This document shows, one piece after another, positions 31,101-49,906 of a DNA stretch of 64,000 bases. The stretch is from contig CAIVEI010000128.1 in NCBI GenBank assembly GCA_903904835.1, positions 124,001-188,000 of the forward strand, read 5' to 3'. The notes beneath the pieces are model-generated. The model searched no databases, was not told the origin of the DNA, and saw nothing but the letters and a program-made list of their open reading frames with translations. This DNA comes from an uncultured Schlesneria sp. (GTDB taxonomy: Bacteria; Planctomycetota; Planctomycetia; Planctomycetales; Planctomycetaceae). Position 1 is the first letter of the stretch, and each line of letters begins with the position of its first letter. Both the position numbers and the translations under genes were made by a program.

Positions 31101-31154
31101 GATCATCTTTGCTCGCGATTGTTCAACAATGGAATTTGGCGAACCGTCAGTCAT
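28140..31154 (-). CDS. TPR - seven-heme cytochrome c - TPR membrane-anchored protein
   Basis: A 1004-residue protein with one N-terminal membrane anchor (about 18-39), N-terminal tetratricopeptide repeats (about 45-410), a multiheme cytochrome c region and C-terminal repeats (about 810-1000). Seven CxxCH motifs appear near residues 439 (CIECH), 573 (CVECH), 601 (CEVCH), 642 (CAQCH), 704 (CITCH), 724 (CKKCH) and 746 (CVGCH). The cytochrome part resembles c554-like or doubled-CXXCH families; such proteins carry electrons in the periplasm. The TPRs suggest a scaffold for partners. It lies 85 bases downstream of a CRTAC1 lipoprotein gene, so the two probably form one unit. Confidence 0.93.
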   Translation of the reverse strand: MTDGSPNSIVEQSRAKMIPRWIWPIIALIVVLGALFAGRQWQYNQPESHYQRGREALKAGDDDVVLSEAEYLSRIAGFESHAKLLRGLLLVRKGKLAGALIQLQQADAAPTIVEASENAAKCFYQLGQYLNAIDAAHVALSRDANSIDARRWLAAAYYDLGAVAHAVIELEQISREAKDDPRPDRLLGLIAKDSEQYVNAIDHYRESLRRDPKQADREKILSELAESLIKDNLFDEAMSVLKDCQRSATVLTLEAECQYSLGETAIAHDLLNKAMILDPRSVPAKLTQGKLFLDGGQADQAVRILKEAVLLDPFSRVTHLQLSQALRQLGQPEKADEELQRSQEIKLQEREFTDLHETAMQRPLDADVRFRLGELAGQLGKPELSKMWLRAAIAIDPQIAKARTALDPDSPSPDRANSTNAIVGLTRVNPGFLGPEACIECHADRVAEFQTTRHFLANQTPQSGKMPDGFSKGKGTYQIPEQSLRFEMTESTRGFLTTAIQQTATGNKETSSEIAFCYGSAGGNDEVYFAWHEDRLYELPVGWLAPSNEWGSSLFDRHGSGDFSRDMTIRCVECHNTWFQHFAGTRNRYGRDNFILGVTCEVCHGPGQDHVTFHRMNPQSLDAHAVARPALMTRERRMDLCAQCHSNALKHRGPAFSYRPGQPLDESYVTLKPKHPEEDHVANQTTYLRQSRCFQESDSLTCITCHNPHQPRSATNAGSASCKKCHSDEECTDRNQIPAELQHNCVGCHMPEGRKIQVFFRTETDKYVAPVKRYEHRIAVYPDARNEVLLEWYRSQSKPQNLKEVARLSKLLGENWRKESERLHGESRYLAAINACRESLRFEPDTKTKEKLAQLLKIQSGIDTDLQDGLWHEKNRRYEQAIEAFQRVLAAKPDHVMALGKLGTNYAVVGKKQLAVESLNAAAVSDPDDPYAPGMLGWLAYLDGRFEEALHHFRQADAVEPYAAKIHYQMGLALEKLGRRDEAIRQFAKAAEIDPNEMAQKRVK

Positions 31155-31239
31155 GAATGTTCATCAGCCGTCAGGGCAAAGGCCCGTGAACCACTCCCGT
31201 GGAGGGGGTGGGGTTTGGATTGGCCTGAATAAAATGTTT

Positions 31240-33006: not shown

Positions 33007-33102
33007 TCCATCTCGCTTTACCGTTTTCAAGCAAACAAACTCGAAAAAAATCATCGTGCACTGGTTCGTTCAGTCGGTCAACTCGATTTTACGGAATTTG
33101 AT

Positions 33103-33498
33103 ACCAATCCAACACTCTGCAAGGCGACTGTTGGGGCGAATCAGCAATACGCCGCTGGTACCAATGTCAGTTCCTGGGGCCAGGGTTCGTTATGGCCATT
33201 CGGACACCCGCATTGGTCTGCCGTGATAACGGTGTTGCCACCGAACAGCGCTTCCTGCACCTTAGGTGGTGACAACGCCAGCAATCAGTGTGGAATTTAC
33301 ACCCCAAGCAGTTATCACACGGGTGGCGTCAACGTGTTGATGGCAGATCGTGGTGTGCGGTTTATCAGCAACAATAATGATGCTGGTAACTACGGCGCGG
33401 GCACTCCTGCGAGCTTTGGTGTCTGGGGTGCTTTGGGTACGATCGCCGGAAATGAAGTGGTTGGAGACTTCTGGCCAAGGCAACGAACCCGACGTTAA
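33103..33498 (+). pseudogene. C-terminal remnant of a DUF1559 (pilin-like) gene
   Basis: This strand encodes the end of a DUF1559 protein without its start. NPTLCKATVGANQQYAAG leads into the HxxGxxxLxADRGVRFI element, which is the family's H-x9-DG signature with the usual DG-S altered to RG, and then the WGALGTIAGNEVVGDF ending. The family stop after GDF is lost and the frame runs on to 33498. The prepilin-like N-terminal 250 residues are missing. The fragment sits directly upstream of the divergent CRTAC1 gene start, so the break probably occurred between the two. Confidence 0.75.
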
Positions 33499-33533
33499 AT
33501 ACTCAAATCCAACGACCTGATGGCTAAACCTCA

Positions 33534-33558
33534 CCACCCCTGCGGGGGTGGTTAAGGG
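33534..33558 (+). terminator. Intrinsic terminator after the DUF1559 remnant
   Basis: Stem CCACCCC (33534-33540) with GGGGTGG (33545-33551), tetraloop TGCG, followed by TTAAGGGGTTTTT. It is intact although the gene before it is decayed. Confidence 0.65.
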
Positions 33559-33696
33559 GTTTTTGCCTTGGCATTTTGCGTTGCTTCGTATTAGCGAATT
33601 GTGGCTCGCGCTGGTGCAAGGGCCCGTTAACCACGGCCAGGGGGCGATGGGACTGTGTGTCAAGGCATTGAGTCCGGGTGACCAAGGGCAGCGGAA

Positions 33697-34470
33697 ATGT
33701 TTCCCGGATCTCGTCTCGCTGCGATCGCATCAGTGGTAACCGCAGTTCTGATCTCAGCGATGTATTCGTATTCCTTATTTACTCCGGCCGCGTCATCGGA
33801 AGCCTTACTTGCTGAAGCACGTTTATTGCTTGCACAGGGAGACCACCAGAAGGCCGAAGTTCTGGCCAGGCAGGCATTGGCCATGGCTCTGGACGTCGAG
33901 GGGCGTGGTCGTTTAAGTCTGTTCGTAGCCAATGATGAAGTCCCCAATTTCCTGTTCGGAGATGCCAACCTTGATGGACTTGAGGATCTTGTCGTCACGA
34001 ATAGTCATATCAATGATCTGACATCGATTGCCGAGCCTTACAAAATGCCGACGCAGTACTTTCAGAATGTCGGCCAGGGCCGGTTCGTCGAATTGGCTTC
34101 AACAAGCCTGGAGCCGTTTTTTCAGGAAACTCATCTGGGACGCGGACTGGCGCGACTCGATTGGAACCGGGACGGACTCGACGATTTTGCGGTCTCGCTG
34201 ATTGGCGAACCTGCAGGATTGCTGACAAATCAAACGCAAGGATCTGGGCACTTTCTGGCTATCCAGTTGCGTGGCACAATATCCAGTCGGGACGCAATCG
34301 GTACTACCGTTGAGATCACCGTCGGCGATCGGAGGTTCGTCAAACAATTGACGGCAGGTGACGGGTATCAGGCATCAAACGAGCGACAGTTACGGTTCGG
34401 CGTGGGAACAATTCCCCAAACGCGCAACTTCAAAACGTATATGCCAGGTGGCGTCGCTTTACTGTGCTGA
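33697..34470 (+). pseudogene. Decayed mosaic TPR-CRTAC1 gene with internal deletions, still open
   Basis: The 257-residue frame joins three family fragments. Residues 1-67 are a signal anchor and a single TPR half (LLAEARLLLAQGDHQKAEVLARQAL). It then jumps into the propeller at RLSLFVANDEVPNFLF, then, missing about 95 residues of the family, into DANLDGLEDLVVTNSHI, and continues into an ASPIC/UnbV domain that breaks off before its conserved WPSG end. The best architectural match is the 983-residue TPR-CRTAC1 protein at 46955-49906. The last codons coincide with a GGTGGCGTCGCTT repeat. Both internal losses are in frame, so translation of a shortened product cannot be excluded. Confidence 0.7.
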
Positions 34471-37059
34471 AATCTTGATATCCTCAACGATCAGCAACTC
34501 CCGATTGAGATCAATTGGTCCTTCGATTACCTGGCGGTGTCCGCTGGGCCATTGAACAACCAGTTGATCGATAGCGGTTGCTGCTCCCAGTCCGAAGTAC
34601 AGCGGCAGGCAGCTTTGCGACAAGTAGCCCGATTGTCCATCCTGAATCTGCGTCAGGATTTTTCCATCGGCTTTGATTTGAACCTTGGTGCCCAATCCAG
34701 ACTTGTTCGAACGAGTTCCTTCGAGGCGGACCTTCAAATACGCCAGTTTGTCATTGCGTGTGCTGAGGTTACTAAGCAATAACATCGGTCGTCCGTTGAA
34801 GTCGTTGGTCACAATATCCAGGTCACCATCTTGATCCAGGTCAAAGATGACTGACGAACGGGACCCGACTGCTCCCCAGACCGTGACAGGGCCAGAGCAA
34901 CCTTTACAGAGGGTGTGTTTCGTATCCGTTGCCGCGCAATCCAGCGTGAAGCAGGGTGAGGCGGTTCGACCGTCACGACGTGGTTCAATTCCCACAATGA
35001 ACTCTGCCCCCTGAAACTGCGTCCCTCGATCGTTGAGTAACAGCGAATTGTGGTGGTATCGAAATGGATAATTCATGCTGGCGGTGACGAACAAATCTTG
35101 AAAACCGTCGGCATTTAAATCGGCGGCGGTGTGTCCCCAGGGCCAGAACGTTTCTGCGTTGATCCGGTCAGAGATTTCCTCGAACTTGTCGCCGTGGTTT
35201 TCGAAGAACCCGTTTCCGAAAATGTTCATCCCAACCGCGCGGCTTTTCAGGATCGATTCCGGTAACACGTCTTGAGGAGCCTTTTCTGTTTCGACAGCTC
35301 CGAGATTTCCTCCATCACCCCGCTTCCACATATCCGCATGCATATTTGTGACGAACAGATCCATCAAACCATCGTTGTTGTAATCGAACGACTTGGCGCA
35401 CATTCCGCCCCAAACGGACTTCGGAAAGGCTTCCTGGCTCCGGCATTCAAACCGTTTTCCCTGGATGTTTTCGTAGTAGTCGTCGTTACCCTGCATATTG
35501 ACCACATACAGATCGATCCACCCGTCCCGGTTAAAATCGAGAGGAGTCGCGTCGCCGGACCATTTTCGATGGACCAGGCCGGTTTCCTCTGACACATCGC
35601 GAAAACGGTTTCCTCCTTCGTTGTGATACAGGATGCTTTGTTCGAAGCGATGTGGAAACAGGTGTCCGCTGAAGGAATCCGTAATCCCCGTGTAAAAGGG
35701 AAATTCTTTCTTGCCTGCATCACCCGCGTAGGCCACTTCATCCGTCGTGAAATTTCCCACGTTTGTGACGAACAGATCGAGTCGGCCGTCGTTGTCGAAG
35801 TCAAAGAAATCGGCACCCGACGAGTGCGCGTGTTGAGTCAATCCAGACGCTTCTGTCACGTCACGGAAATGCCCTTTGCCGTCGTTTTCAAAAAAGGCAT
35901 TTCCATGCCGAGTTGTCGTGACGTACAGGTCTGGATCTCCGTCGTTGTCGGTATCCGCAAACGCTGCCGAAACGCACACTCGGCCCTTCAAAGCAACGCC
36001 GGCAAGTTCCGTCAAGTCTTCAAACCGCCCCTGCCCCAGGTTTCGCCATAGTTCGTTTCCGCCAATCTGATTGACGAAGAAGATGTCGAGTAACCCGTCG
36101 CCATCCACATCGGCAACCGCGATCCCGTTCCCGTGGTCATAGTGGTTCGCTCGATAGTTTCTTGTGGCGTCACTGACAACCCGGTTGACGAAGCGAATCC
36201 CGCTGGCTTCGATTTCGTCGGTGAATGTGAAGTCGTGAAATACGCTGATCTGATCCACTTGTTTCTGCTGATCGGCGGCTCGTTGCGGCAGCCAGGGTGG
36301 ACAGAACACGTCCTTGGGGACCCCTATGTGCAGCATTCGCGTGTCGTCAATACCCGGTTCTGAAAGCAACGATCTCGCGTCGACGATTAATTTTCGAAAA
36401 TCAGGTTCCGACAGACCGTCGTAGAAGCCACGGATCTGATGCTGTTTATCCACCAGCACGAATCGTGGACTGTGGGTAATGGGCGAAGATGTGTCTGTGA
36501 CTGATTCAGAAACGGGAAGTTTGAATCCTTCGGCACAGAGCTTCCAGATCTCGGCCCGAGAGCCGGTCAGAAACTTCCAGAGTGAAGGGGTCGCGCGATG
36601 CGCTTGTGCATATTCTTGAAGGCGGCTGGAGGTGTCGTGTTCGGGATCGACTGTAACGCTGATCAAATTCAGACGGTCGACGTCAGGCCAGAGTTGGACG
36701 ACGCGTTGAAGCTCTTCGAATTTGGCCGTCTGGCGTGGACAGGTTGCCGTGCAACGCGTGAACATAAAATTGGCGATCCAGACCTGTCCATGCAGTTCGT
36801 CGGTTCCATAAGTTTTTTCAGCCTGATCGACGAGGCTGAACTTGGGAATATGCAGCAAAACGGGTAAGGACGACGACTTTTCGCTAGCGTTCTCGGAATT
36901 CGCCGGCTTTTCCGCAGTTGGCGACGTTACTTTCGCGGGGGTAGCCGGTTGCCTTTGACATCCCTGAGCCGTGAACAAGACGAGGCACAGTAGCAACAGC
37001 CAAACGGCACATGCCGATGAGGTTCGAACACGGTGCTCGGGCATTAGTCGCAAATTCAT
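34459..37059 (-). CDS. SCO1/SenC - CRTAC1 fusion lipoprotein
   Basis: An exported 866-residue lipoprotein. The signal peptide ends in FTAQGC near residue 34. A SCO1/SenC domain (about 75-240) keeps the copper-binding cysteines as CTATC near 105 and the distal histidine in THSPRFVLVD near 192. SCO1 proteins deliver copper to CuA of cytochrome oxidase. The rest is a CRTAC1-type propeller (DVDGDGLLDIF, DTDNDGDPDLY and similar) and ASPIC/UnbV domain. The ATG at 37059 is chosen over a GTG nine bases upstream. The gene 36 bases upstream on the same strand is a COX2-like copper-site protein, which fits a shared copper role. Confidence 0.92.
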   Translation of the reverse strand: MNLRLMPEHRVRTSSACAVWLLLLCLVLFTAQGCQRQPATPAKVTSPTAEKPANSENASEKSSSLPVLLHIPKFSLVDQAEKTYGTDELHGQVWIANFMFTRCTATCPRQTAKFEELQRVVQLWPDVDRLNLISVTVDPEHDTSSRLQEYAQAHRATPSLWKFLTGSRAEIWKLCAEGFKLPVSESVTDTSSPITHSPRFVLVDKQHQIRGFYDGLSEPDFRKLIVDARSLLSEPGIDDTRMLHIGVPKDVFCPPWLPQRAADQQKQVDQISVFHDFTFTDEIEASGIRFVNRVVSDATRNYRANHYDHGNGIAVADVDGDGLLDIFFVNQIGGNELWRNLGQGRFEDLTELAGVALKGRVCVSAAFADTDNDGDPDLYVTTTRHGNAFFENDGKGHFRDVTEASGLTQHAHSSGADFFDFDNDGRLDLFVTNVGNFTTDEVAYAGDAGKKEFPFYTGITDSFSGHLFPHRFEQSILYHNEGGNRFRDVSEETGLVHRKWSGDATPLDFNRDGWIDLYVVNMQGNDDYYENIQGKRFECRSQEAFPKSVWGGMCAKSFDYNNDGLMDLFVTNMHADMWKRGDGGNLGAVETEKAPQDVLPESILKSRAVGMNIFGNGFFENHGDKFEEISDRINAETFWPWGHTAADLNADGFQDLFVTASMNYPFRYHHNSLLLNDRGTQFQGAEFIVGIEPRRDGRTASPCFTLDCAATDTKHTLCKGCSGPVTVWGAVGSRSSVIFDLDQDGDLDIVTNDFNGRPMLLLSNLSTRNDKLAYLKVRLEGTRSNKSGLGTKVQIKADGKILTQIQDGQSGYLSQSCLPLYFGLGAATAIDQLVVQWPSGHRQVIEGPIDLNRELLIVEDIKISAQ

Positions 37060-37094
37060 CAAATCCACTCACTTTCGTGAAAGGCAAGAAAGTC

Positions 37095-37643
37095 TCAATC
37101 GAGTTGATTACCGTTGGTTGTTGCCGTCTGTTGACGCAGCCAGCGTTCGAACTGAGGTCGTGATTCGACAATCAGTCGACCACTCATTTCCGGGTGCAAA
37201 TCACCGCAGAGGTCGTCTCCTTGCAGGTCGAATTCACCAATTGTTCCGGGGCGAAGGGTGAGCGAGAAATCCAGCCCGGGAACGGCAATTTCTTTCAAAC
37301 GAAGCTGAGGCAGCGACAACAGGTAAACATAATCGGAACTCTTCAGCTCGAAGACAATTTCGGTATTTTCAGGAACATGAACATTCGGGCCTGTGATTAT
37401 GTCGTCCGTTGTTGCCAGCACTCCATCAAAACCAGGATATCGAACCTGCCATTGAAACTGCCTGCCAGTGATCTCGATCCGATACGGCTGCGGAACCGAG
37501 ATTTTGACCTTTGCCGAAACGTCATCCGTTCGCAATGGATGCATCGTGAACGGCCAGTCTGCCGGCGAGCACCCCGATTCCGATAGGAAAAAGCACAGGT
37601 AAAGTACGGAAAAGCCTTTTCTCGCAGTGAGAAATCGATTCAA
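37095..37643 (-). CDS. Cytochrome c oxidase subunit II-like protein with half-lost CuA site
   Basis: A cupredoxin-fold protein close to the soluble part of COX2 (GRQFQWQVRYP, then VHVPENTEIVFELKSSDY, then LRLKEIAVPG). In normal CuA the ligands are one His early and C-x-E-x-C-x3-H-x2-M late. Here the early His is Tyr, the first Cys is Gly and the Glu is Asp, while the second Cys, the His and the Met remain. The binuclear site therefore cannot form; a mononuclear site is conceivable. A TTG start at 37643 gives a 25-residue lipoprotein signal ending FLSESGC. The longer frame to 37826 is also open. The two N-terminal COX2 membrane helices are absent. No subunit I lies nearby. Confidence 0.8.
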   Translation of the reverse strand: MNRFLTARKGFSVLYLCFFLSESGCSPADWPFTMHPLRTDDVSAKVKISVPQPYRIEITGRQFQWQVRYPGFDGVLATTDDIITGPNVHVPENTEIVFELKSSDYVYLLSLPQLRLKEIAVPGLDFSLTLRPGTIGEFDLQGDDLCGDLHPEMSGRLIVESRPQFERWLRQQTATTNGNQLD

Positions 37644-37997
37644 TAATCGCAGAGCGAAGACTTTCGACGGAATTGATATTGGATCACCGATGACGAAGCT
37701 CAACCTGGGAGTTAGCAAATTTTGCACCTTTCCAAGTTTTTTCGTTGGTGGGCCGCGATGCCACGGGGAAGTTTGCTTGCGTTTCCGTTTAATCCTAATA
37801 TATGTTTTGCCGGTCTTCCATACCATGCGCTGGAATGTCCGGAGTTCGCTCCCCTAATTTTCGTGAAATACAGCGTCCTGGCCAGCCTGTCGATTGACGA
37901 TAGAAGCGGTTTTATCGTAGTGTTCTGAATATGTCCCAAAAGTCATTCAATTCTATGAATGATCTTGTCCTCAACTCCTTTTCATGGAATATCTATC

Positions 37998-38222: not shown

Positions 38223-38321
38223 TCTGCCGCAATGATTTGAGCACGTCAGTTTTTTGTTTTTGTTCAAATTGACGATCGTTCCAGGGACATGTTCCTGTCC
38301 CTCTCGTCGTCGGAAGTTTTT

Positions 38322-40226
38322 ATGGGCAAAACCTCGAGTGTATTGCTGCGTCTGTTCGCGGTCCTCGGCGTTGCGGCTTTGCTCATTGGCCTTGAGGTGA
38401 TGCGTCTGACTCGTCAGCGGATCGTGGAAAAACGATCCGCGACGAGTCCCGCTTCGACTTCCTCGGGCATCGAATGTCTCGACGCTGCGCCAGCGATCAT
38501 CCGCCAGAGTAAAAATCCCTCCTTCGTCGATGTCACGCGGGCTTCGGGTCTTGATTTTCAGCATGCGGTCGGTCCCTTGGGGACCTATTTCATGCCTGAA
38601 TCTGTCGGGACCGGTGGAGCACTGTTCGACTTCGACGGCGATGGTCGATTGGATCTGTATCTCGTTCAGAGCGGTCGCTCTCCTGGTGTAGATCGTGACG
38701 TTCCCGATTCGGTGCCATTTGAAAGCCGACTTTTCCGACAAGCAGAAAATGGAGTTCTCGTCGATGTGACCCGGACAGCAGGCTTGGGGGGGACCGGCTA
38801 CGGAGTGGGTTGCGCCGTCGCAGATGTTGATAACGACGGCGATCCAGATCTTTATGTGACCCGCTATGATCAGGACAGTTTGTACCTGAATAATGCGGAC
38901 GGGACATTTTCAGATGTCACCCAGTCGTGTGGGATCGTTGAGCATGACTGGGGGACATGCGCTGCCTTCTTTGACTATAACCGCGATGGTCTGCTCGATC
39001 TGATTGTGGTCAATTACACGCACGACCCGACATACGGGCATTCTGTTGCCTGCGGGTTCCGCGAAGGTCTGGTGAGCTACTGCGGGCCACGCAAATTCCA
39101 GCCGACTGTCGATCGATTGTACCGAAATGACGGTTTGCAGACCGATTCCAGCGGTCGGCAGACGGTGAAGTTTACTGACGTGACTGATGTTGCTGGGCTG
39201 AGCGAGACGAAAACATACGGTTTTGGCGTCGTCTGCGCAGATTTCAGTGGTGACGGATGGCCTGACATTTTCGTGGCCAATGACGGGGCAGCAAATCGTC
39301 TCTGGATCAATCAGCAAAATGGCACGTTTCTCGAAGAGGCCACGCAGCGGGGATGTGCGACGAACGCTCACGGAGCGGCCGAGGCGGGGATGGGGGTTGC
39401 GATTGGCGATGTTAATCACGATGAACGCCTTGACCTGATTGTGACTCATCTTTCAGGAGAAAGGGCCACTCTCTATCTCGATAAGGGGGACGGAGTTTTT
39501 GAAGACGCCTCAGATGTCTCCCGGATTGTTCGACCAACCATGCGGCATACAGGCTGGGGAACCGGGCTGATCGATTTCAATCATGATGGGCAATTGGATT
39601 TTGCTGTGACGAACGGCCTGGTGATTCCTTGCCACTCGGGATTCCCGGCCCATGGCGAAGACAAATTTCAAGTTCGTCATGACGTGATTGCAAACCCTGT
39701 TGCTTTCTGGCACGAGTATGCTGACCAGAATCTGCTTTTCTTCGGTGCGGGGCGTGGTCTGTTTAATGAAGCCACGACGCAAGGTGGCGATTTCTGTGCG
39801 GCCGTCGGCTCAGGGCGTGCCTTGATTCACGGTGATCTCGATAACGATGGCGATATCGATCTGATCGTGACGAATTGTGGCGGGCCGGCGAAATTGTACA
39901 GGAATGATTTCACAAAATCAGGAAACTGGCTGATGGTTCGTGCCGTTGATCCCCGCTTCAGGCGCGATGCCTATGGAGCCGAAATCACGTTGTACGCAAA
40001 CGGTGTTCGGTATCTGGCGTGTGTTAACCCGACGTCAAGCTTCCTCGCCAGCAATGATGTTCGAGTTCATTTCGGCTTAGGCGAAACCCCAGCGTATGAA
40101 AAGATTGTCGTCAAATGGCCAGATGGCCCTCTCGAATCGGCAATCGAAGTTTTTGAAGGCGGAAATTCGAATCGACATGTCGAGGTTCGAAGAGGCGACG
40201 GTAAAGCATTGAAAGACATCCGATGA
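38322..40226 (+). CDS. CRTAC1-family protein (membrane-anchored propeller plus ASPIC/UnbV)
   Basis: A 634-residue protein beginning with a single hydrophobic anchor (about 7-28, LLRLFAVLGVAALLIGLEV), without a lipobox. The propeller follows with repeated DxDxDG-type calcium loops (DFDGDGRLDLY near 105, DVDNDGDPDLY near 167, DYNRDGLLDLI near 217, DLDNDGDIDLI near 510), then an ASPIC/UnbV domain near 535-620. The start at 38322 is preferred to 38289. The stop overlaps the start of the next gene by four bases (ATGA), so translation of the two is coupled. Confidence 0.9.
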   Translation: MGKTSSVLLRLFAVLGVAALLIGLEVMRLTRQRIVEKRSATSPASTSSGIECLDAAPAIIRQSKNPSFVDVTRASGLDFQHAVGPLGTYFMPESVGTGGALFDFDGDGRLDLYLVQSGRSPGVDRDVPDSVPFESRLFRQAENGVLVDVTRTAGLGGTGYGVGCAVADVDNDGDPDLYVTRYDQDSLYLNNADGTFSDVTQSCGIVEHDWGTCAAFFDYNRDGLLDLIVVNYTHDPTYGHSVACGFREGLVSYCGPRKFQPTVDRLYRNDGLQTDSSGRQTVKFTDVTDVAGLSETKTYGFGVVCADFSGDGWPDIFVANDGAANRLWINQQNGTFLEEATQRGCATNAHGAAEAGMGVAIGDVNHDERLDLIVTHLSGERATLYLDKGDGVFEDASDVSRIVRPTMRHTGWGTGLIDFNHDGQLDFAVTNGLVIPCHSGFPAHGEDKFQVRHDVIANPVAFWHEYADQNLLFFGAGRGLFNEATTQGGDFCAAVGSGRALIHGDLDNDGDIDLIVTNCGGPAKLYRNDFTKSGNWLMVRAVDPRFRRDAYGAEITLYANGVRYLACVNPTSSFLASNDVRVHFGLGETPAYEKIVVKWPDGPLESAIEVFEGGNSNRHVEVRRGDGKALKDIR

Positions 40227-41599
40227 TTCGATGGCATGACGATTTCAACTCGGGCGACATTGCGTTCCTGTTCCTCGCGATCGTAGTGCAGATCCTGCTC
40301 GCATTGCCTGCCCTGGGGCTGTTTTACCAAGGGATGGCGGATCGCAGCGGCTTACTGACACTGATCCCCAAACTGATCCCTCTGATTGCGCTTATGAGTC
40401 TTACATGGTGCCTATGGGCCTTCAGCCTGGCCTTTGCACCTGGACCAGGAACTGTTCCTGAAATTGATCTCAAAACACCTTCGCCCGTCTTAAACAGTTT
40501 TCAGGAGATGATGGAGATCGGCGACGCAAAAAAAGACGAAACGGCAGCGCACGGACGAGGTGGTTTTTGGGGGGGAGAAAATTTTCTGAATTTCCAAGGC
40601 CAATCGCCGATGTCGGGAGCCCAGCGCCCGGTGTTTCCCAGTCGAAGACCGTTTCATCAGATTCCTATTCTGTTGTTTATGGCTTTACATATGATGTTAT
40701 TTGTCGCTGCGCCGATTCCGCTGTTGCTGCTTCTGGTCGAACGAATCCGGCCTGGTGCAATCCTCTTGTTCGCAATGATTTGGGGCTCGATCGTCTACAC
40801 ACCATTGGCTCATTGGGTTTGGGGAGATGGCTGGCTGGAATCCCTCGGAGTGATCGACAGCGGCGGTGGATTGATCCAGGTCGGTATCGGTTTTTCGGCT
40901 TTGGCGTTTAGCGTTGCCCCTGGAAGAAAGCGGCATGCGCATCCCTCCGACGAATTGGCCACTTACGAGAATTCTCAACGGATTGTAATCGTAAGCCTGG
41001 GTGCTCTGGCCTATTGGGTAGGGACGTCAGTCGTCAATAGTGCGCTTAGCATGCATGCAGACGGACGGGCTGTCGTCACATTTGTGAACAGCTTTCTTGC
41101 CGGAAGTGCTGGAGCACTGTCCGGCATTGTTGCTTCAACTCTTATTCGTGGGCGTGCGGATCAATCGGCGGCGAGCACTGGAGCAATTGCAGGTCTTGTT
41201 GCCGTTGCGACGGGTTGCGGTTTAATGTTGCCGCAATCGAGCCTGATCACCGGTGGTACCGTGGCGGCGATTTGTTGCGTCGTCGCAGAACTGCTTCAAG
41301 TTCAAAGGAAGGATCACGGATACCTGTTTGTGTTTGTGCTTCAGGGGGTCGCGGGCAGTGTAGGCAGTATCCTCGCCAGTGTTTTTGCGACTTCAAGTGT
41401 CGCCGGGTTTCGCTGGGATGGACGGATTATTGAGGGGGCGATCGAAGGCAACTTCAATCAGATCCAAGTGCAACTGATCGGAGTGATGGCCACCGCCGCC
41501 TTGGGATTCGTGGGAACCTTGATCATTCTTTTACTCTTCAATTTACTGTTCCGCGGCAGGATCGTTGCGAATCCGGTTGCGACGACCGTCGCCAATTGA
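40223..41599 (+). CDS. Amt-like membrane protein with both channel histidines replaced by glutamine
   Basis: A 458-residue polytopic protein with about eleven membrane segments, homologous to ammonium transporters. The family landmark PLAHWVWGDGWLESLGVIDSGGG is present near residue 190. In AmtB the channel twin histidines lie in GGTVVHI and GVHGVCG; the corresponding positions here are GGLIQV (near 213) and VLQGVAG (near 373), so both are Gln. Ammonium transport by the usual relay is therefore doubtful; a sensor, channel for another small solute, or inactive scaffold are alternatives. The loop between TM2 and TM3 (about 75-135) is long, glycine/proline-rich. It overlaps the upstream CRTAC1 gene by four bases. 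Confidence 0.82.
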   Translation: MIRWHDDFNSGDIAFLFLAIVVQILLALPALGLFYQGMADRSGLLTLIPKLIPLIALMSLTWCLWAFSLAFAPGPGTVPEIDLKTPSPVLNSFQEMMEIGDAKKDETAAHGRGGFWGGENFLNFQGQSPMSGAQRPVFPSRRPFHQIPILLFMALHMMLFVAAPIPLLLLLVERIRPGAILLFAMIWGSIVYTPLAHWVWGDGWLESLGVIDSGGGLIQVGIGFSALAFSVAPGRKRHAHPSDELATYENSQRIVIVSLGALAYWVGTSVVNSALSMHADGRAVVTFVNSFLAGSAGALSGIVASTLIRGRADQSAASTGAIAGLVAVATGCGLMLPQSSLITGGTVAAICCVVAELLQVQRKDHGYLFVFVLQGVAGSVGSILASVFATSSVAGFRWDGRIIEGAIEGNFNQIQVQLIGVMATAALGFVGTLIILLLFNLLFRGRIVANPVATTVAN

Positions 41600-41894: not shown

Positions 41895-42986
41895 TCAATT
41901 CCCCGTATTGCTTTCGTTACCTGAAACCGAATTCAAAGCTCGCCAAGCATTGAAATCCATGGTATCGTTCAGGAACCGTACTGTTCCATCGGCCATGAGG
42001 AAGTGGGCACCACCAGTATGGAGGCTGTGCGCACCAGGCCAGTTGTTGTTGATTCCAAAGCAAGTGAGATACGTTGGTTGGTAGACATATGGTGCGCCGA
42101 AATTCGTTCCCCCGCTGCCCCAGAATCCGGTATTGGGCGCACTCAAGTTTGCTGTGCCGTCCGCATTTCCTGGATACATCGCACCACCAGCACCGCTGGC
42201 ACCTACAGCAGGACTATCGATTGGAGCAATTGAGTGACCTGCAGCATCACTCGACGTTTGTACGCCGACGAGGCATGGGCGAAACACCGAGTTGTTACCG
42301 CCACCGCGCGCATGTCCGTTTCCATTAACCTGATGGCTTCGGTTGGGGTCATTTGCGTCGAATCCCGTTGTCGTGGTTTCGCCGAGCATGATTGTGTTCG
42401 AAGTTCCATCGGTGATGTCGCTAATTCGTGTATGAACAGTGATTGCAAAAACACCGTTCAGCGTACCACCCGGTCGGTTCCACCAGTCCCAACCTTCTGC
42501 ACCGGAATAATTGGTCCAGCCGAGATTAAAACGATTGCCGGAACCGCCAAAACCTGGATCGGATGGGCATTTAAACGCGGGGAACGAATAGGACGGCAGG
42601 GCCGCGCCGTTAATCATCTGATTCCACGCTGGCTGCGAGAAATTAATCGCGTTGTAGAGTGGTCCCTGATCGATGTACGGCAGAATCATCGTGATCCAAG
42701 TGTAGTTTCTTGGCTGAGGATTGACGGCAACCCCGTTGTTGTATCCGCCCGCTGCATAATGCCAGTAACAGGCTGCAGAAAGTCGTCCGTACGTATCGTG
42801 GTAATTGTGCAGAGCCAAGCCGGCCTGTTTCAGGTTGTTCCGGCACTGTGTTCGGCGTGCGGCTTCGCGCGCCTGTTGTACTGCTGGCAAAAGCAGCGCG
42901 ATCAGCACAGCGATAATCGCGATAACGACCAACAGCTCAATCAAAGTAAATCCACGCCATTTTTTTCTGACCGCAATTTGCTTCAT
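41895..42986 (-). CDS. DUF1559 protein with type IV prepilin-like N-terminus
   Basis: A 363-residue exported protein. After a basic start, RGFTLIELLVVIAIIAVLIALLLPAVQQAR (residues about 11-40) is a prepilin signal with the cleavage Gly before FTLIE, and the C-terminus has the family HxxGxxFLMADGTVRFL element near 325. In between are Asn/Gly-rich segments. Such genes are highly amplified in planctomycete genomes and are thought to be pseudopilins or surface proteins. An AAAGGAG ribosome binding site lies seven bases before the ATG, and an intrinsic terminator follows. Confidence 0.95.
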   Translation of the reverse strand: MKQIAVRKKWRGFTLIELLVVIAIIAVLIALLLPAVQQAREAARRTQCRNNLKQAGLALHNYHDTYGRLSAACYWHYAAGGYNNGVAVNPQPRNYTWITMILPYIDQGPLYNAINFSQPAWNQMINGAALPSYSFPAFKCPSDPGFGGSGNRFNLGWTNYSGAEGWDWWNRPGGTLNGVFAITVHTRISDITDGTSNTIMLGETTTTGFDANDPNRSHQVNGNGHARGGGNNSVFRPCLVGVQTSSDAAGHSIAPIDSPAVGASGAGGAMYPGNADGTANLSAPNTGFWGSGGTNFGAPYVYQPTYLTCFGINNNWPGAHSLHTGGAHFLMADGTVRFLNDTMDFNAWRALNSVSGNESNTGN

Positions 42987-43247: not shown

Positions 43248-44609
43248 TTATTTCGCCACCCCTGACGGGGAAAAGTTTGCCGGATTTAAGGCGGAAGCCG
43301 ATTCTGGCTCATTGGCGACCTCGCGAAACTGCCGTTCGATTTCCCGACGAACGATTTCATCCGGGTGTTTCAGGTGCATTGCCAGTTCAAGAAAGTGATT
43401 CGCTTGACTAGGCTTACCCAATTGTTGGTAGACGGCGGCAAGTGCAAGATACGCCGAAGCGATATCCGGAGCGGCGTGGATTGCTCGTTGATAGCATTCC
43501 GCCGCCACTTCCAGGTGCCCCTGCCGTTCTTCGATCATCCCCAGCATCGAATTGGCCTCTGCAGCGTCGGCCTTTTTGTCGATCGCTTGCTCAAAGCGAC
43601 GTTTGGCTTCCTGAAATCGACCAACGCTGGCCAGCAATCGCCCCCAAGCGAGATATCCTGTGGATTCGTCTGGAAAACGGGTCACCAGTTGTTGGAACTC
43701 GCGCTGAGACTCGGGTATTTGCCCAAGCTGCCACAAGACGATCGCCAGATTCAATCGGGCCCGCGACAGTTCTGGATGATCGCGAACGACGTTTTGCAGC
43801 ATCTTCGCTGCGGCCGCAAACTGCCCGGCAGCGAGAAGCTGGTCAGCACGTTCCGAAGAGGCCTGACCAGCCAGTTCGAGATCAAATACCTCTTTTAACC
43901 AGGGATCGTTAAGCGAAACTTCTGGCGTCGTCGCTAATTGAGCCGAATTTTCGTAGCCGAGCGCTTCAGTCCAATTCCCTTGTCGGGAGGCAAGGCGGGC
44001 TAGTTCGAGCTTAACGTCTCGACAATAGGGTGCCAAAGTCGAGGCGAGCTTCAAATTCTGTTCTGCAGACGACCATTTGGCTGCGGAAAGATCCAGACGG
44101 GCCAGTGCCAGTCGTGGGGCAGGTTCCTTTGGTTTAAGTTCCGCAGCCGTTTGAAATTCCGCTCGTGCCTCGTCAAGGCGACCAAGTCTTGCCAGGACCT
44201 TACCCAGACGATACCGGACGATCGCCGATTTGTCGTCGACTTTCAGTGTCTCGCGATAAACGGCTTTGCTGGCTTCGAGATCCGACTCCTCGAGCAAGAT
44301 TCCCTGGAGATAGATCCACTTCCCGTCTTGCTTGTCCAGCTTCGACGCGTGCCGAAAGCAAGTCATGGCTTCATTTCCGAAATCATGAGCCATGTAAAGT
44401 TTACCAAGATGCCCCCACGCGGCTGCTGATTTTGGTTGACTGATGACGGCATCTTTTCCGTCCGAACACGCCTTATGAATTGCGGCGGACAGCCCTGTCA
44501 TATTTGGTGACGGTACTGACAAAGCAGGCTGGCAGCCGATCAGAGACGTACCACAAAAAATACCGATCGAAACCAATATCTGCATCAGCGTTTTTCGGTC
44601 GTTCATCAT
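43248..44609 (-). CDS. TPR-repeat lipoprotein
   Basis: A roughly 453-residue exported protein. The signal MMNDRKTLMQILVSIGIFCG ends at the lipobox GTSLIGC, cysteine about residue 26; the longer open frame to 44684 adds 25 residues that do not look like a signal. The rest is about ten tetratricopeptide repeats (for example AWGHLGKLYMAHDFGNEAMTCFRHASKL, then RYRLGKVLARLGRLDEARAEFQTA). TPRs bind partner peptides. It lies beside CRTAC1 and DUF1559 genes, so a scaffold role for those surface proteins is likely but unproved. Confidence 0.88.
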   Translation of the reverse strand: MMNDRKTLMQILVSIGIFCGTSLIGCQPALSVPSPNMTGLSAAIHKACSDGKDAVISQPKSAAAWGHLGKLYMAHDFGNEAMTCFRHASKLDKQDGKWIYLQGILLEESDLEASKAVYRETLKVDDKSAIVRYRLGKVLARLGRLDEARAEFQTAAELKPKEPAPRLALARLDLSAAKWSSAEQNLKLASTLAPYCRDVKLELARLASRQGNWTEALGYENSAQLATTPEVSLNDPWLKEVFDLELAGQASSERADQLLAAGQFAAAAKMLQNVVRDHPELSRARLNLAIVLWQLGQIPESQREFQQLVTRFPDESTGYLAWGRLLASVGRFQEAKRRFEQAIDKKADAAEANSMLGMIEERQGHLEVAAECYQRAIHAAPDIASAYLALAAVYQQLGKPSQANHFLELAMHLKHPDEIVRREIERQFREVANEPESASALNPANFSPSGVAK

Positions 44610-45129
44610 TTTATTGGATGCTACTTGTTGCAACATGGCCGATCGCTCCACCAACATTGTGAAGGATTTTTGTAAATGGCGCAACCGTGATGGGCCAAAT
44701 AATCTGGGTAACGATTTTCTGACGAAAGTTTGGTCTCAAATTTATCTATGTCTCGAAGGGACTACAGCAATTAGCCGTTGGTTGAGCGCAGCGACACCAC
44801 CGGATATCGGGACCAACCAGGTCTTGCATCCTTGAAGGATGCAAGAGACGCTTGTTGTGAATTCAATTCAAGCTTGTCTTCTTCAAAGTTCTCTTTCATC
44901 GCCGAAAAGTTCGTTCGCTCCTTAATTCATTCGGTCATCCCTCCGTGATGATGCAATCATTCGTGACGCAGACCGGTGGCGTCGCTTCGCTCAGCCACGG
45001 GTTAATGGCTTCAAGTCCCTTCGGGACAAAGACACTGGGGCCAGCCTTAGCCAACCGATGTCAATCGTTACCTGCATCGCGCGGCACAGTTTTTTTCCAT
45101 CTGTCCCTGTTTTTTCGATGAACAATCAC
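44610..45129. repeat. Intergenic region with inverted short repeats
   Basis: About 520 bases without a gene. TGAGCGCAGCGACACCACCGG (44783-44803) recurs in opposite orientation, with three mismatches, at 44973-44993; part of the same unit also ends the decayed gene near 34443. An 11-base palindrome (44823-44833 with 44835-44845, CTTGCATCCTT) sits between them, and a GTCCC/GGGAC hairpin lies near 45015-45027. These look like a short dispersed planctomycete repeat; function unknown. Confidence 0.6.
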
Positions 45130-46866
45130 TCATTGAGTTGACGTTCCACGCCGTAATTCTACGGATTGATTAAGTTTCACATCAGTGAATTCTTCAGCGA
45201 TATCCCCGCCACGGAGAGGCCAATGAACCGTGATTCGTTTGACTTCTGTTGCGCCTCCCAGGCCAAAATGAAGTCTGGGATCGTGGTGGCTTAAGTATCC
45301 TGACGAGGGTTGTACGAACTGCGTCCACTTTTGGTCGCCGCACTCGACTGTCACGCGAGCTCCATAGGCATCGCGACAACGTTTTGCATCGATCACACGA
45401 ATCAGCAACCAGGCTCCGTCACGGGGCGCGTCATTTCGGTAGAGTCGAGCAGGCCCATTTGCGGTTGTGACCAGCAGGTCCAGGTCACCATCGTTATCAA
45501 TATCACCGCGAATCAAGCCGCGAGCGACCGAGTTCGTCTCAGTAAACGTCCCCGCAAGTTGCAACTCGTTACGAAAAACGCCTGGTGCAGTCTGCAGGAA
45601 TAATTGATTTGGCTGAGCATAGTCGCTCCAGAAATCTCGTGTCGCCGACGAATCGCGTTGCAGGCCGCCAGGCCGCTTCACGTGACCGTTGACAATCAGC
45701 AAATCAAGCCGACCATCGAGGTTCAGATCGATCGAAGTCACTCCAAAACCTGTCATTGAAATACTGGCGGGGCCGAGACCGGTTTGTGGGGTAATATCGT
45801 AATAAAGTCCCCCCTGCTCTCCCTGCCAAAGCGTATTGCTTTCTCCTCGAAGGTGAGTGATCAAGACATCGAATCGCCCGTCCCGGTTCAAATCATCGAA
45901 CACCACACCCATATTGGCTTCTGCCTGTCCCTGTTGATTGACGGACAGTCCTCGAACGACCGCTTCGTCGCGGAACGTGCCATTTTTCTGCTGAATCCAC
46001 AGGCGGTTCGGTTCCATATCGTTTGCGACCAGAATATCGGGGCGTTCATCGTCATTGAAGTCGGCACACATCACGCCTAAGCCCTTTCCAACAGCACCTG
46101 CCAGCCCACTCACGACGGTGTGATCCTCAAATAACGGTCCCCCCGCCTCCGAAGTGACTCCTTTATTGCGATACAGCCGGTCAACGGTTCCTTTAAACGA
46201 TTGAGGTCCGCAAAAATCTCGACGTCCGCTGCGGTCGTAACAGGGGCTGCCAGGGAAATAGTCAACGTAATTGACGACGACAAGATCAAGCCATCCATCC
46301 CGGTCAAAGTCCACAAAACTGCATGCGGTCGACCAGTTCGGGTCAGAGACACCTGCCGCGGGCGTGTGGTCAATGAACACACCGTTGCCTTTATTAACGA
46401 AGAAACGGTCGTCCCCCGCGTTCGATAAAAAAACATCCAGGTCACCGTCATTGTCGGCATCACCAACGGCGATTCCCATTCCGTAACCTGTGTTCTTCAA
46501 CCCAGACTCTTCAGTGACGTCAACAAAATGCCCGTCCGCTTCCTGCCGAAATAATCGGCTTGTAACCTGGGGGGATGTTGATGACAGGGGATAATCACCC
46601 CCACCAATTAGAAAGATGTCGAGATCGCCATCGCCGTCGTAATCGAACATTCCGCCACCCGACCCCATGATCTGCGGCATTTCAAACGCCTGAATCGAAC
46701 CGCCGTCACGTGAAAATGCCAGTCCAGTCGGCTGGGTGATATCGGTTAGCCAGCTTGCCGAAGCTTGGGACACGCTCGAGGCCGGAGTCTGAGGCAATGA
46801 TTTTCCGTAACACCCAATCGTTGTCATGAGCAGCACGAGAAATATCCGTCGGACTGATTTCTTCAT
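45130..46866 (-). CDS. CRTAC1-family lipoprotein (propeller plus ASPIC/UnbV)
   Basis: A 578-residue exported lipoprotein. The start at 46866 gives MKKSVRRIFLVLLMTTIGC, a clean lipoprotein signal; the longer frame begins at 46917. The propeller loops include DYDGDGDLDIF near 80, DADNDGDLDVF near 134, DFDRDGWLDLV near 185, DINLDGRLDLL-type near 376 and DIDNDGDLDLL near 440, and an ASPIC/UnbV domain ends the protein. It follows the TPR-CRTAC1 gene on the same strand, with about 90 bases between. The closest match in the window is the anchored copy at 38322. Confidence 0.9.
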   Translation of the reverse strand: MKKSVRRIFLVLLMTTIGCYGKSLPQTPASSVSQASASWLTDITQPTGLAFSRDGGSIQAFEMPQIMGSGGGMFDYDGDGDLDIFLIGGGDYPLSSTSPQVTSRLFRQEADGHFVDVTEESGLKNTGYGMGIAVGDADNDGDLDVFLSNAGDDRFFVNKGNGVFIDHTPAAGVSDPNWSTACSFVDFDRDGWLDLVVVNYVDYFPGSPCYDRSGRRDFCGPQSFKGTVDRLYRNKGVTSEAGGPLFEDHTVVSGLAGAVGKGLGVMCADFNDDERPDILVANDMEPNRLWIQQKNGTFRDEAVVRGLSVNQQGQAEANMGVVFDDLNRDGRFDVLITHLRGESNTLWQGEQGGLYYDITPQTGLGPASISMTGFGVTSIDLNLDGRLDLLIVNGHVKRPGGLQRDSSATRDFWSDYAQPNQLFLQTAPGVFRNELQLAGTFTETNSVARGLIRGDIDNDGDLDLLVTTANGPARLYRNDAPRDGAWLLIRVIDAKRCRDAYGARVTVECGDQKWTQFVQPSSGYLSHHDPRLHFGLGGATEVKRITVHWPLRGGDIAEEFTDVKLNQSVELRRGTSTQ

Positions 46867-46954
46867 GTTCGCTGGCATAAACGGTGTTTCGTAATCCGGA
46901 TTGATATTGCTTTTCATCGATTGACGTTCAGAGTTACGGCAATGCGAGATCCAG

Positions 46955-49906
46955 TTAATGCGACATTGGAATTGGCTGTGAACCTTCGATCACAATCCAG
47001 CGAGAACGCGATGGCAGGTCGGTCAAGACTTCATGCTTGCCACCGGGCCAGACAATTTCAATCCGGTCGATTCGATCGTGGTTTCCCAGCCCGAAGATCA
47101 GCTTTTGTTCGTTCGCACTGCAAAATCCATCTCCTCCGGTCAGATCAGCGCGTTGGGTCCGTCCTCCGCACGTCACCAGGACTTTGGCTCCAATGGCATT
47201 TCGATTTCCGATCGGAGATCGCAACTGAAGTTCGATAAAATTCCCTGGTTGAGCGGTGGTATTTTTCAGCAAGGCGACCGGACGATCTTGATGAACGATC
47301 ACAACATCAGGCAGGCCGTCCCTGTTCCAGTCGACTCGAGCGACGCCCCGACCGAGATATTCCCCCTGGAAATAATCACCTGCTTCACGTGATCGATCCG
47401 CATACTTTGAGGCTCCCCCCGAGACGAATAACTGAGGAGGCATTTTCCAGGGAATTCCCAAGGCTCGTTGATCGTCGATATGACCATTGGCCACAACCAG
47501 TTCCAGATATCCATCAAGATCAAAGTCGATCGCTTGAGTACCAAATCCCAGCATATTCAGGGTTGGCTGATAGAGGCCACTGGATCGAGTGGCATCGCGA
47601 AAGACCCCCTCGCCCAAATTCAAATAAAGTCCGTTCGCTTCACGATAGAAATAGGTGACGTAAAGGTCGAGACGCAGATCACCGTTAAGATCGCCACAGG
47701 CAATCCCCATTCCCGCTTGAGCAATTCCCGTTTCGCTCAGTGCGACCGTTGCCAATAATCCTTCTTCGACAAAATTGAGATGACCGGCGGAACTTCGATT
47801 TCGATAAAAGAAATTCGGCGTCGTATCGTTTGCGACAAATGCATCGACGAGACCATCGTCGTCCAGGTCCGCCAGCAGTAGTCCAAGCCCCTTGCCTCCT
47901 GGTGACAACCCGCTGGAGGGTGTCGCATCTTGAAATTGACCATCACCACGATTCATGAACAAGCGGTCGTCGACCCCGATGTGATTCGACGGACTGCAGG
48001 TACTGATCTCCCCCTTGTCGTTACGGCAGACTTTCAGGCCATCGACATAATTGACGATAAACAGGTCAAGGAAACCGTCCTGATCGAAATCAGCCCAACC
48101 GGCACTGGTCGACATTTCCTGCCGATTCAGGCCCGCCAGTTTTGTGATATCACGGAATGTTCCGTCCCCCTGATTCTGCAGCAATGAGCAGAGTCCGAAG
48201 TTCGTCACCAGCAGGTCGTCAAACCCATCGTTGTCAAAATCACCGACAGCCACTCCCATTCCGTAACCGGGATCTCCTACGCCGACATGGGATGGAACGG
48301 CACTGAACCCCGTCCCTCCGATATTTCGAAATAACTGGTCACGCCACGTGCCCGGACCTTTGGAATCTTCTTTCAGCATGTCATTTCCCTGCGGAAAGAA
48401 CAGGTCAGGCCAACCATCATGATCGAAGTCGATCACGCCAACTCCACCCCCCATCGATTCGATCAGGTACTGAAATCCACTTTTGCCGTTGTAGTACGAG
48501 AAATCCAGCCCTGCCGCTTCGTGGTTATCCTCGAATCGAATCACCGCTTGGTTTGAGGACGGTGCATTTTCTGAATCAGGCGAAGCCAGCTTTTTTGTGA
48601 GTTTGAGTGAAACTGGCCCGTTGGGGTGTGGGGCTTTCGCGAGTAATTGTGCGACGGTATTCATTTGCCGGAGCTGTAGGGCCTGGATTCCTGCCTCTGC
48701 CTCTGAAGATGTGGGATCTAACTTCAGGGCTTGCTCGTACCAGGCACTGGCTCGATCGGGCTCTTCGAGCACCGCGAGTTGATCAGCAAGTTCGTTTAGC
48801 GATTTGGCCGTGATCTTATTACGGGCCAACATGATCCCGAGCGTTTCACAATGCTCGCGCAGTTGGGCAATCAGTGCGGTCCGGTGCAGAGCAATCTCTG
48901 CCAGCTCGGGTTTTCCGAGTCGTTGCAGCGCCAGTCCCAGGCGGCGGTAGGCACTGCGGTCGAGCGAATCGCGTGCGGCGACGATCCCAAAACATTGGGC
49001 CGCCCGTTCCCACTCTTCACATGCCAGGAAAAACAAACCACCGCTGCGCCATAATTCAACGGGATCGTTGCTCGTCAGTTCAATTTTTTCCAACAGCTTT
49101 GCCGCTCCCGCAAGATCCTGCTGTTCGATAAGGATCTCGGCCAGCAGGCCGCGAGCAATCTTGTTACCGGGCTCGTTGTTGACAAGATTCCGCAGGACGT
49201 CGATGGCCTCTCGGGGGCGGACCGATTCGTTATAGTAGGCCGCAAGTGCCAACTGGCTTGGCGTGTCGTGGGGATTCTTCGTGATGTAGAGTTCCAATTG
49301 TGAGATCCCATCCTTAGGATCGAGCATCCGCTCCGCCGCAGACAATTTGAGTGCGAGTTCGGTCATTTTCAGGGTGCGGATCTGAGAGATCGCGTCAATC
49401 TGGCTCAGGAGATCCTCTTTCCGCCGTTGCAGGACGTAGAGCTGAACAAGCCGATCATGTGGCTGCAAATAGGTGGAATTGAGTTCCGCTGATCGGATTA
49501 GCTTTGCTTCCGCAACCACAGCATCATTCATCGCCAAAGCAATCGAACCTTCCAGAAATCGCGCCACGCCGGCGAATTTCCTGGCATCGTCTGGAACCTT
49601 TGCAAGTTCTTTTAAGGCAAGTTCATCGTCCCCCATGTCGCGAGCCAGTTGCGCTCGAAACAGCCTGGCTTCATGATGATCGGGTTGTTGTTTTAAAATC
49701 TGATCGAGAAGCCGCTGTGCGGTCGCGTGGTCTTTTCTTCGAATGGCTGATCGCGAATCTTCCATCTTTTCTTCAATGGAGATCTGCGGCGAACAGCCGA
49801 CAAGAAACAACATTCCCCAGACAAATACACGCAGAAACGGGGCGAAGCAGCTCAATGGCGTGAGGCTATTTTGTCGAACGTCACCGCGTAGTTTCGATCG
49901 CCGCAT
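46955..49906 (-). CDS. TPR-CRTAC1 lipoprotein
   Basis: A 983-residue exported protein. The signal ends at FLVGC near residue 38. About eleven tetratricopeptide repeats (about 55-425) precede the CRTAC1 propeller (about 460-870, DFDHDGWPDLF, DFDNDGFDDLL, DFDQDGFLDLF, DLDDDGLVDAF) and an ASPIC/UnbV domain (about 880-965). This is the full-length version of the architecture whose remnant is at 33697-34470. TPRs probably recruit partner proteins; the propeller's ligand is unknown. It is the first gene of a leftward run that continues with CRTAC1, TPR and DUF1559 genes. Confidence 0.92.
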   Translation of the reverse strand: MRRSKLRGDVRQNSLTPLSCFAPFLRVFVWGMLFLVGCSPQISIEEKMEDSRSAIRRKDHATAQRLLDQILKQQPDHHEARLFRAQLARDMGDDELALKELAKVPDDARKFAGVARFLEGSIALAMNDAVVAEAKLIRSAELNSTYLQPHDRLVQLYVLQRRKEDLLSQIDAISQIRTLKMTELALKLSAAERMLDPKDGISQLELYITKNPHDTPSQLALAAYYNESVRPREAIDVLRNLVNNEPGNKIARGLLAEILIEQQDLAGAAKLLEKIELTSNDPVELWRSGGLFFLACEEWERAAQCFGIVAARDSLDRSAYRRLGLALQRLGKPELAEIALHRTALIAQLREHCETLGIMLARNKITAKSLNELADQLAVLEEPDRASAWYEQALKLDPTSSEAEAGIQALQLRQMNTVAQLLAKAPHPNGPVSLKLTKKLASPDSENAPSSNQAVIRFEDNHEAAGLDFSYYNGKSGFQYLIESMGGGVGVIDFDHDGWPDLFFPQGNDMLKEDSKGPGTWRDQLFRNIGGTGFSAVPSHVGVGDPGYGMGVAVGDFDNDGFDDLLVTNFGLCSLLQNQGDGTFRDITKLAGLNRQEMSTSAGWADFDQDGFLDLFIVNYVDGLKVCRNDKGEISTCSPSNHIGVDDRLFMNRGDGQFQDATPSSGLSPGGKGLGLLLADLDDDGLVDAFVANDTTPNFFYRNRSSAGHLNFVEEGLLATVALSETGIAQAGMGIACGDLNGDLRLDLYVTYFYREANGLYLNLGEGVFRDATRSSGLYQPTLNMLGFGTQAIDFDLDGYLELVVANGHIDDQRALGIPWKMPPQLFVSGGASKYADRSREAGDYFQGEYLGRGVARVDWNRDGLPDVVIVHQDRPVALLKNTTAQPGNFIELQLRSPIGNRNAIGAKVLVTCGGRTQRADLTGGDGFCSANEQKLIFGLGNHDRIDRIEIVWPGGKHEVLTDLPSRSRWIVIEGSQPIPMSH

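Follow-up and report, generated by a model that had tools for sequence, protein, structure and literature searches.

The Amt-like gene and its CRTAC1-family neighbor

The window analyzed here, a stretch of 64,000 nucleotides from the genome of an uncultured Schlesneria sp. (G000 in what follows), contains a gene for a protein related to the Amt ammonium transporters, whose start overlaps the stop of a gene of the CRTAC1 family. We refer to these genes as the Amt-like gene and CRTAC_A, respectively. They are arranged as follows:

38289..40226, + strand: CRTAC_A, with an N-terminal helix, an FG-GAP propeller and an UnbV/ASPIC domain; the constant 5' neighbor (Pfam, structural model)
40223..40226, + strand: ATGA, four bases shared by the end of CRTAC_A and the start of the Amt-like gene; an overlap of exactly this length occurs in 15 of the 18 loci of clade I, defined below
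40223..41599, + strand: Amt-like gene for a putative pseudo-transporter of 458 aa, with an ATG start and 11 predicted transmembrane (TM) helices (open reading frame (ORF), Pfam, AlphaFold, Foldseek)

The Amt-like protein matches PF00909, the only domain that Pfam finds in it, with E=1.8e-45 and 155.8 bits against a curated cut-off of 23.2. Its score with the NCBIfam amt model, TIGR00836, is 151.9 bits, far under the cut-off of 343.3. All 13 sequences of the member alignment match PF00909 at E up to 0.01. An AlphaFold model built on a 13-sequence alignment has 11 membrane-length helix regions (mean predicted local distance difference test, pLDDT, 74.4; predicted template-modeling score, pTM, 0.78), with residues 74-146 at low confidence, and the chain ends 15 residues past TM11. 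When this model was compared with known structures using Foldseek, Amt and Mep proteins came out on top, the best match being A. fulgidus Amt-1 (E=1.1e-15). The predicted fold is that of an 11-TM Amt protein.

The initial annotation had described the gene as overlapping a CRTAC1 gene by four bases, and both the overlap and the family assignment are real: the product of 38289-40226 has the FG-GAP propeller and the UnbV/ASPIC domain by Pfam and by fold match. Its model, from an alignment of 5 sequences (mean pLDDT 70.6), consists of an N-terminal helix and a propeller, and matches the mouse CRTAC1 crystal structure 9etn with E=3.5e-33.

The host assembly, of 8.18 Mb, holds four PF00909 matches, among them the window gene and one short fragment; a canonical Amt is present elsewhere in the genome. 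A regular-expression search for a PII gene near this canonical Amt (L035), over 19 kb, was negative. The short piece (C155; L004 1240-1884) is a 214-aa frame that matches only the first part of PF00909.

Members and phylogeny of the subfamily

With the window protein alone as query, 15 of 150 genomes from the order gave matches with E no higher than 1e-40, that of G026 being canonical. With a 13-member profile, 397 genomes of the class gave 14 matches of at least 305 bits, followed by G040b (232), G116 (211) and G109b (203), and all remaining Amts scored 196 bits or below. Among 392 genomes sampled across the phylum, matches passing E 1e-60 came from G000 and G018 alone. The very divergent members G129 and G140 (32-39 bits to Pfam) were found via their CRTAC_A neighbor. 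In total, 21 genes linked to CRTAC_A were read, 18 of them in clade I and three in clade II (G040b, G109b and G116). Their spread is patchy: a CRTAC_A match of at least 918 bits occurs in 17 of 170 genomes of the order, and across the 397 genomes of the class E 1e-230 was passed in 14 genomes, all from the family of the window genome.

In a tree of 44 sequences, the 21 linked and 23 canonical proteins are split with support 100/100, and clade I (100/98) and clade II (99/97) are likewise supported. The tree is unrooted and drawn at midpoint; the 100/100 split may be read as a single origin of the linked proteins.

Residues of the ammonium pathway

AmtB residue numbers are given here as we take them to be, anchored to motifs in a canonical sequence. 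The codons at the positions of the two pore histidines (the twin histidines) are:

40877..40879, + strand: CAG codon, Gln219, at the position of AmtB His168 (phmmer, MAFFT, codon reading)
41342..41344, + strand: CAG codon, Gln374, at the position of AmtB His318 (phmmer, MAFFT, codon reading)

A phmmer alignment with the solved Candida albicans Mep2 places the His of GGGPVHENSGF opposite the Gln of GGGLIQVGIGF, and the His of LHGVGG opposite the Gln of LQGVAG; a MAFFT alignment with canonical Amts gives the same placement. That is, both sites carry Gln and not His, as the initial annotation had read by eye. The first site is easily misread, as the alignment has a one-residue gap there. A one-residue misalignment can be ruled out, since both methods put Gln219, not Val220, opposite His168. 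The HWVWG.GW landmark, also pointed out before, is indeed retained. More of the pathway is altered too: the Phe gate, F107 and F215, is replaced by Leu and Val, and in the outer ammonium site W148 and D160 are kept while S219 is Leu.

All 23 canonical sequences retain F107, W148, D160, H168, W212, F215, N216, S219, D310 and H318 (c_L076 and c_L079 were left out of this count). In the linked subfamily, F107, W212, F215 and S219 are altered in 18/18 clade I sequences, and in none of these do both histidines occur together, whereas the clade II copies G040b and G109b retain both histidines and F107. The GLD...H tail motif is present in 23/23 canonical and 0/21 linked sequences, G088 and G109b being cut by the contig end. 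In E. coli, the conserved C-terminal Amt tail contacts GlnK (PMC10433425).

Because both twin histidines, S219 and the Phe gate are all missing together, selective ammonium transport by the window protein is very unlikely. AmtB H168A/H318A does not support growth, and current is absent in S219A/H168A/H318A (PMC7447429). It could still be that the protein is a working ammonium transporter of changed mechanism, in a CRTAC1-linked nitrogen pathway. Its PF00909 membership and the two histidines of the clade II copies agree with this, as does the location of CRTAC1 genes beside hydrazine-synthase-like genes in other bacteria (PMC12758564). The joint loss of the twin histidines, the Phe gate, W212, S219 and the GLD...H tail, and the TIGR00836 score far under its cut-off, make it highly improbable.

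Twin-site residues vary widely among the 21 linked proteins. Gln/Gln is found in two (the window and G069), His/Gln in three (G088, G053 and G116), Tyr/Gln in one (G031), His/His in two (G040b and G109b), and nonpolar pairs in 13, one with Pro first; the second-site letter, lying beside a gap, is uncertain in G145, HEM18, G118 and G072, the last with an adjacent Gln. The recurrence of Gln/Gln in G069, an independent genome whose protein is 68% identical to that of the window, rules out a single aberrant copy. A conserved, tuned Gln pair is ruled out likewise: the survey of CRTAC1-linked homologues that had been proposed for it finds the pair in 2/21 only, and the change extends far beyond the twin histidines. 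The argument that a paired, symmetrical change speaks against random decay also fails, because G088 has His/Gln, so that the two sites changed in succession, and nonpolar residues occur in further members.

In the tree, the Gln/Gln pair (100/99) is sister to G088 (100/98); G069 and G088 are of the same genus as the window genome. Since this nearest branch is His/Gln, the twin-site change was stepwise, and the simplest order for this lineage is that Gln arose at the second site before it arose at the first. Linkage to CRTAC_A plausibly preceded pore loss, because His/His persists in clade II, which is also linked; this order depends on the root of the tree.

A channel of altered selectivity, for water, urea, gas or a cation, with a pore lined by Gln in the window species, has also to be considered. 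Two polar Gln residues are common to G000 and G069, and AmtB lacking one histidine is an unselective ammonium/potassium channel (PMC7447429). Against this, the twin sites hold Leu/Leu, Leu/Met, Phe/Met, Tyr/Gln or His/Gln in homologues that share the partner, and therefore no common pore chemistry is preserved. We regard such a channel as distinctly unlikely.

Loss of the twin histidines is not a general trait of Amts in these genome collections. As a control we used 104 Amt proteins from 105 loci, 37 of which are shorter than 4500 bases and have little flank; 97/104 proteins have His/His, six depart clearly (L128, L129, L192, L194, L196 and L197), and the remaining one, L141, is a 254-aa fragment that lacks the second site. 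These six are exactly the six of the 105 loci with a CRTAC-like ORF. Some of the control sequences were retrieved by a pattern that includes W148, and W148 conservation among them is therefore not independent. A 2020 mechanistic paper names Glu at the first site, in the Mep proteins of fungi, as the sole natural variation of the twin-histidine motif (PMC7447429).

Constancy of the gene pair

CRTAC_A lies directly 5' of the Amt-like gene in 21/21 subfamily genes read, its sequence being partial in HEM18, G066 and G116; the piece in G116 is nearest to CRTAC_A, with 49% identity over 190 aa. The clade I loci without the exact overlap have spacings of +58 (G112), +13 (G031) and -23 (G140). Conversely, all 19 CRTAC_A matches of at least 918 bits in the 170 genomes of the order have an Amt-like gene directly 3'; this set was delimited by a gap in bit score, the following matches being at 763 and below. 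G040 and G109 each carry two pairs, head to head, one from each clade. The pair is also found on the single-contig, 8.92 Mb genome G018, which rules out an assembly artefact as its source. Protein distances of the Amt-like and CRTAC_A sequences are correlated across 19 sequences (without HEM18 and G116), with a Mantel r of 0.91 that was reached in 0 of 2000 permutations.

In the next CRTAC group (740-763 bits: G067, G794, G111 and G123), no Amt-like neighbor was found in the stretches read. CRTAC genes may pair with differing membrane proteins by lineage. A protein of 823-846 aa precedes the CRTAC gene in G067, G111 and G123 (L175, L177 and L178), and the one in G111 has a weak match, just below the cut-off, to the membrane protein family YfhO.

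Selective constraint and the conserved outer surface

The ratio of nonsynonymous to synonymous substitution rates (dN/dS, Nei-Gojobori, NG86) was computed for six pairs chosen as close. For the Amt-like gene it is 0.08, 0.18, 0.29, 0.12, 0.11 and 0.12, with dS above 1 in three of the pairs, and for CRTAC_A in the same pairs it is 0.09, 0.18, 0.17, 0.11, 0.10 and 0.09. The Amt-like gene is therefore under purifying selection. A decaying duplicate, that is, a pseudogene in the making, might account for the faster divergence of the Amt-like protein, whose mean distance is 0.70 versus 0.49 for CRTAC_A (19 sequences). Ratios well below 1 in all six pairs argue against it, as do the frame, which is broken in 0/21 sequences (G088 and G109b being read only to contig ends), the four-base coupling in 15/18 loci and a loop held at constant length, described below; decay is extremely improbable. 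The earlier view that the Gln substitutions are not random decay is upheld on other grounds, namely purifying selection, the 21/21 linkage to CRTAC1 and an enlarged, conserved outer loop.

The distribution of conserved positions over the protein was counted with a topology that combines the model with the N-out arrangement of Amts, which we assume to apply here. In clade I, positions at least 90% identical number 21/137 in outer loops, 11/271 in TM segments and 0/50 in inner loops. Outer loops are thus more conserved than the rest (p=2.3e-5), whereas in canonical Amts the bias is reversed (p=0.0019). In clade I, conservation has shifted to the outside of the membrane, where two loops stand out:

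40436..40666, + strand: predicted extracytoplasmic TM2-TM3 loop, residues 72-148, enlarged, with conserved GRGGF.G and P.F.SRRP (model, loop counts)
41387..41455, + strand: predicted extracytoplasmic TM10-TM11 loop, residues 389-411, with the element RWDG..I.G.IEGN (alignment, model)

Counted from the Phe71 column to the Pro148 column, the TM2-TM3 loop is 75-78 aa long in 18/18 clade I sequences, compared with 61-62 in clade II and a median of 39 (range 29-76) in canonical Amts. Within it, G[RK]GG is found in 18/18 clade I sequences and [RK]RP in 16/18, the exceptions being G112 and G031. This shift of conservation to the outer face, together with the fixed pairing and the coupling of the genes, therefore indicates a partner that is probably extracytoplasmic, with CRTAC_A the obvious candidate.

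Proposed role and relation to known systems

We lean towards the view that the window gene encodes an Amt-fold protein that has become incompetent for transport and is retained as a membrane-embedded partner for the CRTAC_A propeller. The four-base overlap would couple translation of the two proteins, CRTAC_A would be tethered by its own N-terminal helix, and it would dock on the new conserved extracytoplasmic surface of what is presumably an Amt-like trimer. The dock would consist of the TM10-TM11 loop and the 75-78-aa TM2-TM3 loop, in which the GRGG and RRP motifs lie. A more far-reaching version, which we put forward tentatively and at somewhat less than an even chance, is that this whole bacterial Amt branch is a pore-dead receptor or scaffold that holds a CRTAC1-type propeller at the cell surface, as a counterpart of RhCE, and that pore loss followed the capture of CRTAC_A stepwise, from His/His in clade II through His/Gln to Gln/Gln and nonpolar pairs.

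Several observations weigh against a partnership built on a dead pore. Adjacency and correlated distances could arise simply because the genes are inherited together as a block, with no contact between their products. Divergence is faster in the Amt-like protein than in CRTAC_A, and in the G040b/G109b pair its dN/dS is 0.29 against 0.17. These two clade II proteins may, judging from their residues, still move ammonium, and coupling to CRTAC_A needs no dead pore. Because single His-to-Ala mutants of AmtB still pass ammonium and potassium as unselective channels (PMC7447429), a Gln-Gln pore could by analogy conduct. Finally, D160 is kept in 21/21 and W148 in 17/21 linked proteins, so that a ligand vestibule may survive on the outer side.

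With D160 still present throughout and W148 in most members, the main rival is a sensor: ammonium or another small ligand would bind in the outer vestibule and be signaled to CRTAC_A or another partner, without transport. Amt-based sensors exist, and the fold matches of the model in Foldseek include 6eu6 (Sensor Amt Protein) and a Receptor Sd-Amt1 entry. In G118 and G145, moreover, a GAF-domain protein of about 700 aa is encoded before CRTAC_B, another CRTAC gene, three genes 5' of CRTAC_A (L031 1283-3421; L029 2357-4444). However, neither Pfam nor the model reveals a signaling domain fused to the window protein. Among ten further neighbor proteins scanned with Pfam, these two GAF proteins are the only ones with a signaling-type domain; the others are housekeeping or efflux proteins or have no match, and apart from the GAF pair no kinase-sensor, cyclase or response-regulator domain was found in the ten. 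All 18 clade I proteins have lost S219 and the Phe gate, whereas Ks-Amt5 retains the binding site, the Phe gate and the twin histidines (PMC10433425). We consider a sensor unlikely. As to the initial suggestion of "a repurposed transporter or a sensor", repurposing as such is supported by the CRTAC1 linkage in 21/21 genes, purifying selection and the conserved, enlarged outer loop, but the suggestion as worded has no specific support, given the lack of a fused signaling domain and pore residues that vary freely within the subfamily.

The membrane partner that we propose for CRTAC_A shares with the Amt/Mep proteins (AmtB, AfAmt-1 and Mep2; PF00909) the fold, 11 helices, D160, mostly W148, and HWVWG.GW. 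It differs in that it lacks the twin histidines, the Phe gate, W212, S219 and the GLD...H tail, has an enlarged outer loop, and is encoded together with CRTAC_A. Ks-Amt5 and Sd-Amt1, the latter with a fused output domain, put the Amt fold to a use other than uptake, as is proposed for the window protein. Ks-Amt5 comes from a planctomycete and carries a fused histidine kinase; the window protein has no C-terminal signaling domain and does not retain the pore residues, which Ks-Amt5 keeps (PMC10433425). An entry of the Rh-ankyrin complex, 7uzq, is among the Foldseek matches of the Amt-like model. RhCE and RhD of this red-cell complex lack the twin histidines and are not known to transport. They are relatives of Amt/Mep in the wider Amt/Mep/Rh family, placed in a multi-protein membrane complex (PMC10985258, PMC11242273). 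Unlike the window protein they are eukaryotic and linked to the membrane skeleton, and the analogy is one of role, not of membership. As to the partner, bacterial CRTAC_A shares the fold of mouse CRTAC1 (9etn) and adds an N-terminal helix of membrane-anchor type and a constant Amt-like neighbor gene.

A search of titles and abstract openings in the open-access literature returned no description of an Amt-CRTAC1 pairing. Within a single fold and beside a constant partner gene, the subfamily provides a natural series of His/His, His/Gln, Gln/Gln, Tyr/Gln and nonpolar pores, which can help to find out what purpose the histidines serve and what function is left to the protein after transport has been lost. 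It would also offer a starting point for understanding the function of CRTAC1 proteins in planctomycetes, several of which are encoded in this window alone.

Other genes at the locus and in the window

In ten loci (G053, G018, G145, G118, G072, G112, G031, G089, G129 and G140) the gene order is CRTAC_B, TPR protein, CRTAC_A, Amt-like gene. In the window, CRTAC_B, the TPR gene and a DUF1559-type gene lie on the opposite strand, convergent on the CRTAC_A/Amt-like pair:

41895..42986, - strand: recurrent neighbor, presumably a DUF1559-type pseudopilin-like gene (ORF, similarity across loci)
43248..44684, - strand: TPR protein of the same gene set (Pfam, loci of relatives)
45130..46917, - strand: CRTAC_B, in the window split off and convergent (Pfam, loci of relatives)
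46955..49906, - strand: recurrent neighbor, CRTAC-like protein with a TPR-like N-terminal part (ORF and similarity in relatives, no Pfam basis)

At positions 28140-37826, genes for four proteins adjoin: a CRTAC protein, an SCO1-CRTAC fusion, a weakly matching COX2-like protein, and a TPR protein that includes cytochrome c554-like stretches. This arrangement suggests a redox setting for this CRTAC cluster. Within the same stretch, the 257-aa ORF at 33697-34470 comprises only the end of a CRTAC-type protein, with one FG-GAP stretch and UnbV, and is perhaps a remnant. Elsewhere in the window, 11223-20291 is a gene for a 3022-aa non-ribosomal peptide synthetase with condensation, AMP-binding and PP-binding domains, and 897-10034 is an ORF of 3045 aa.

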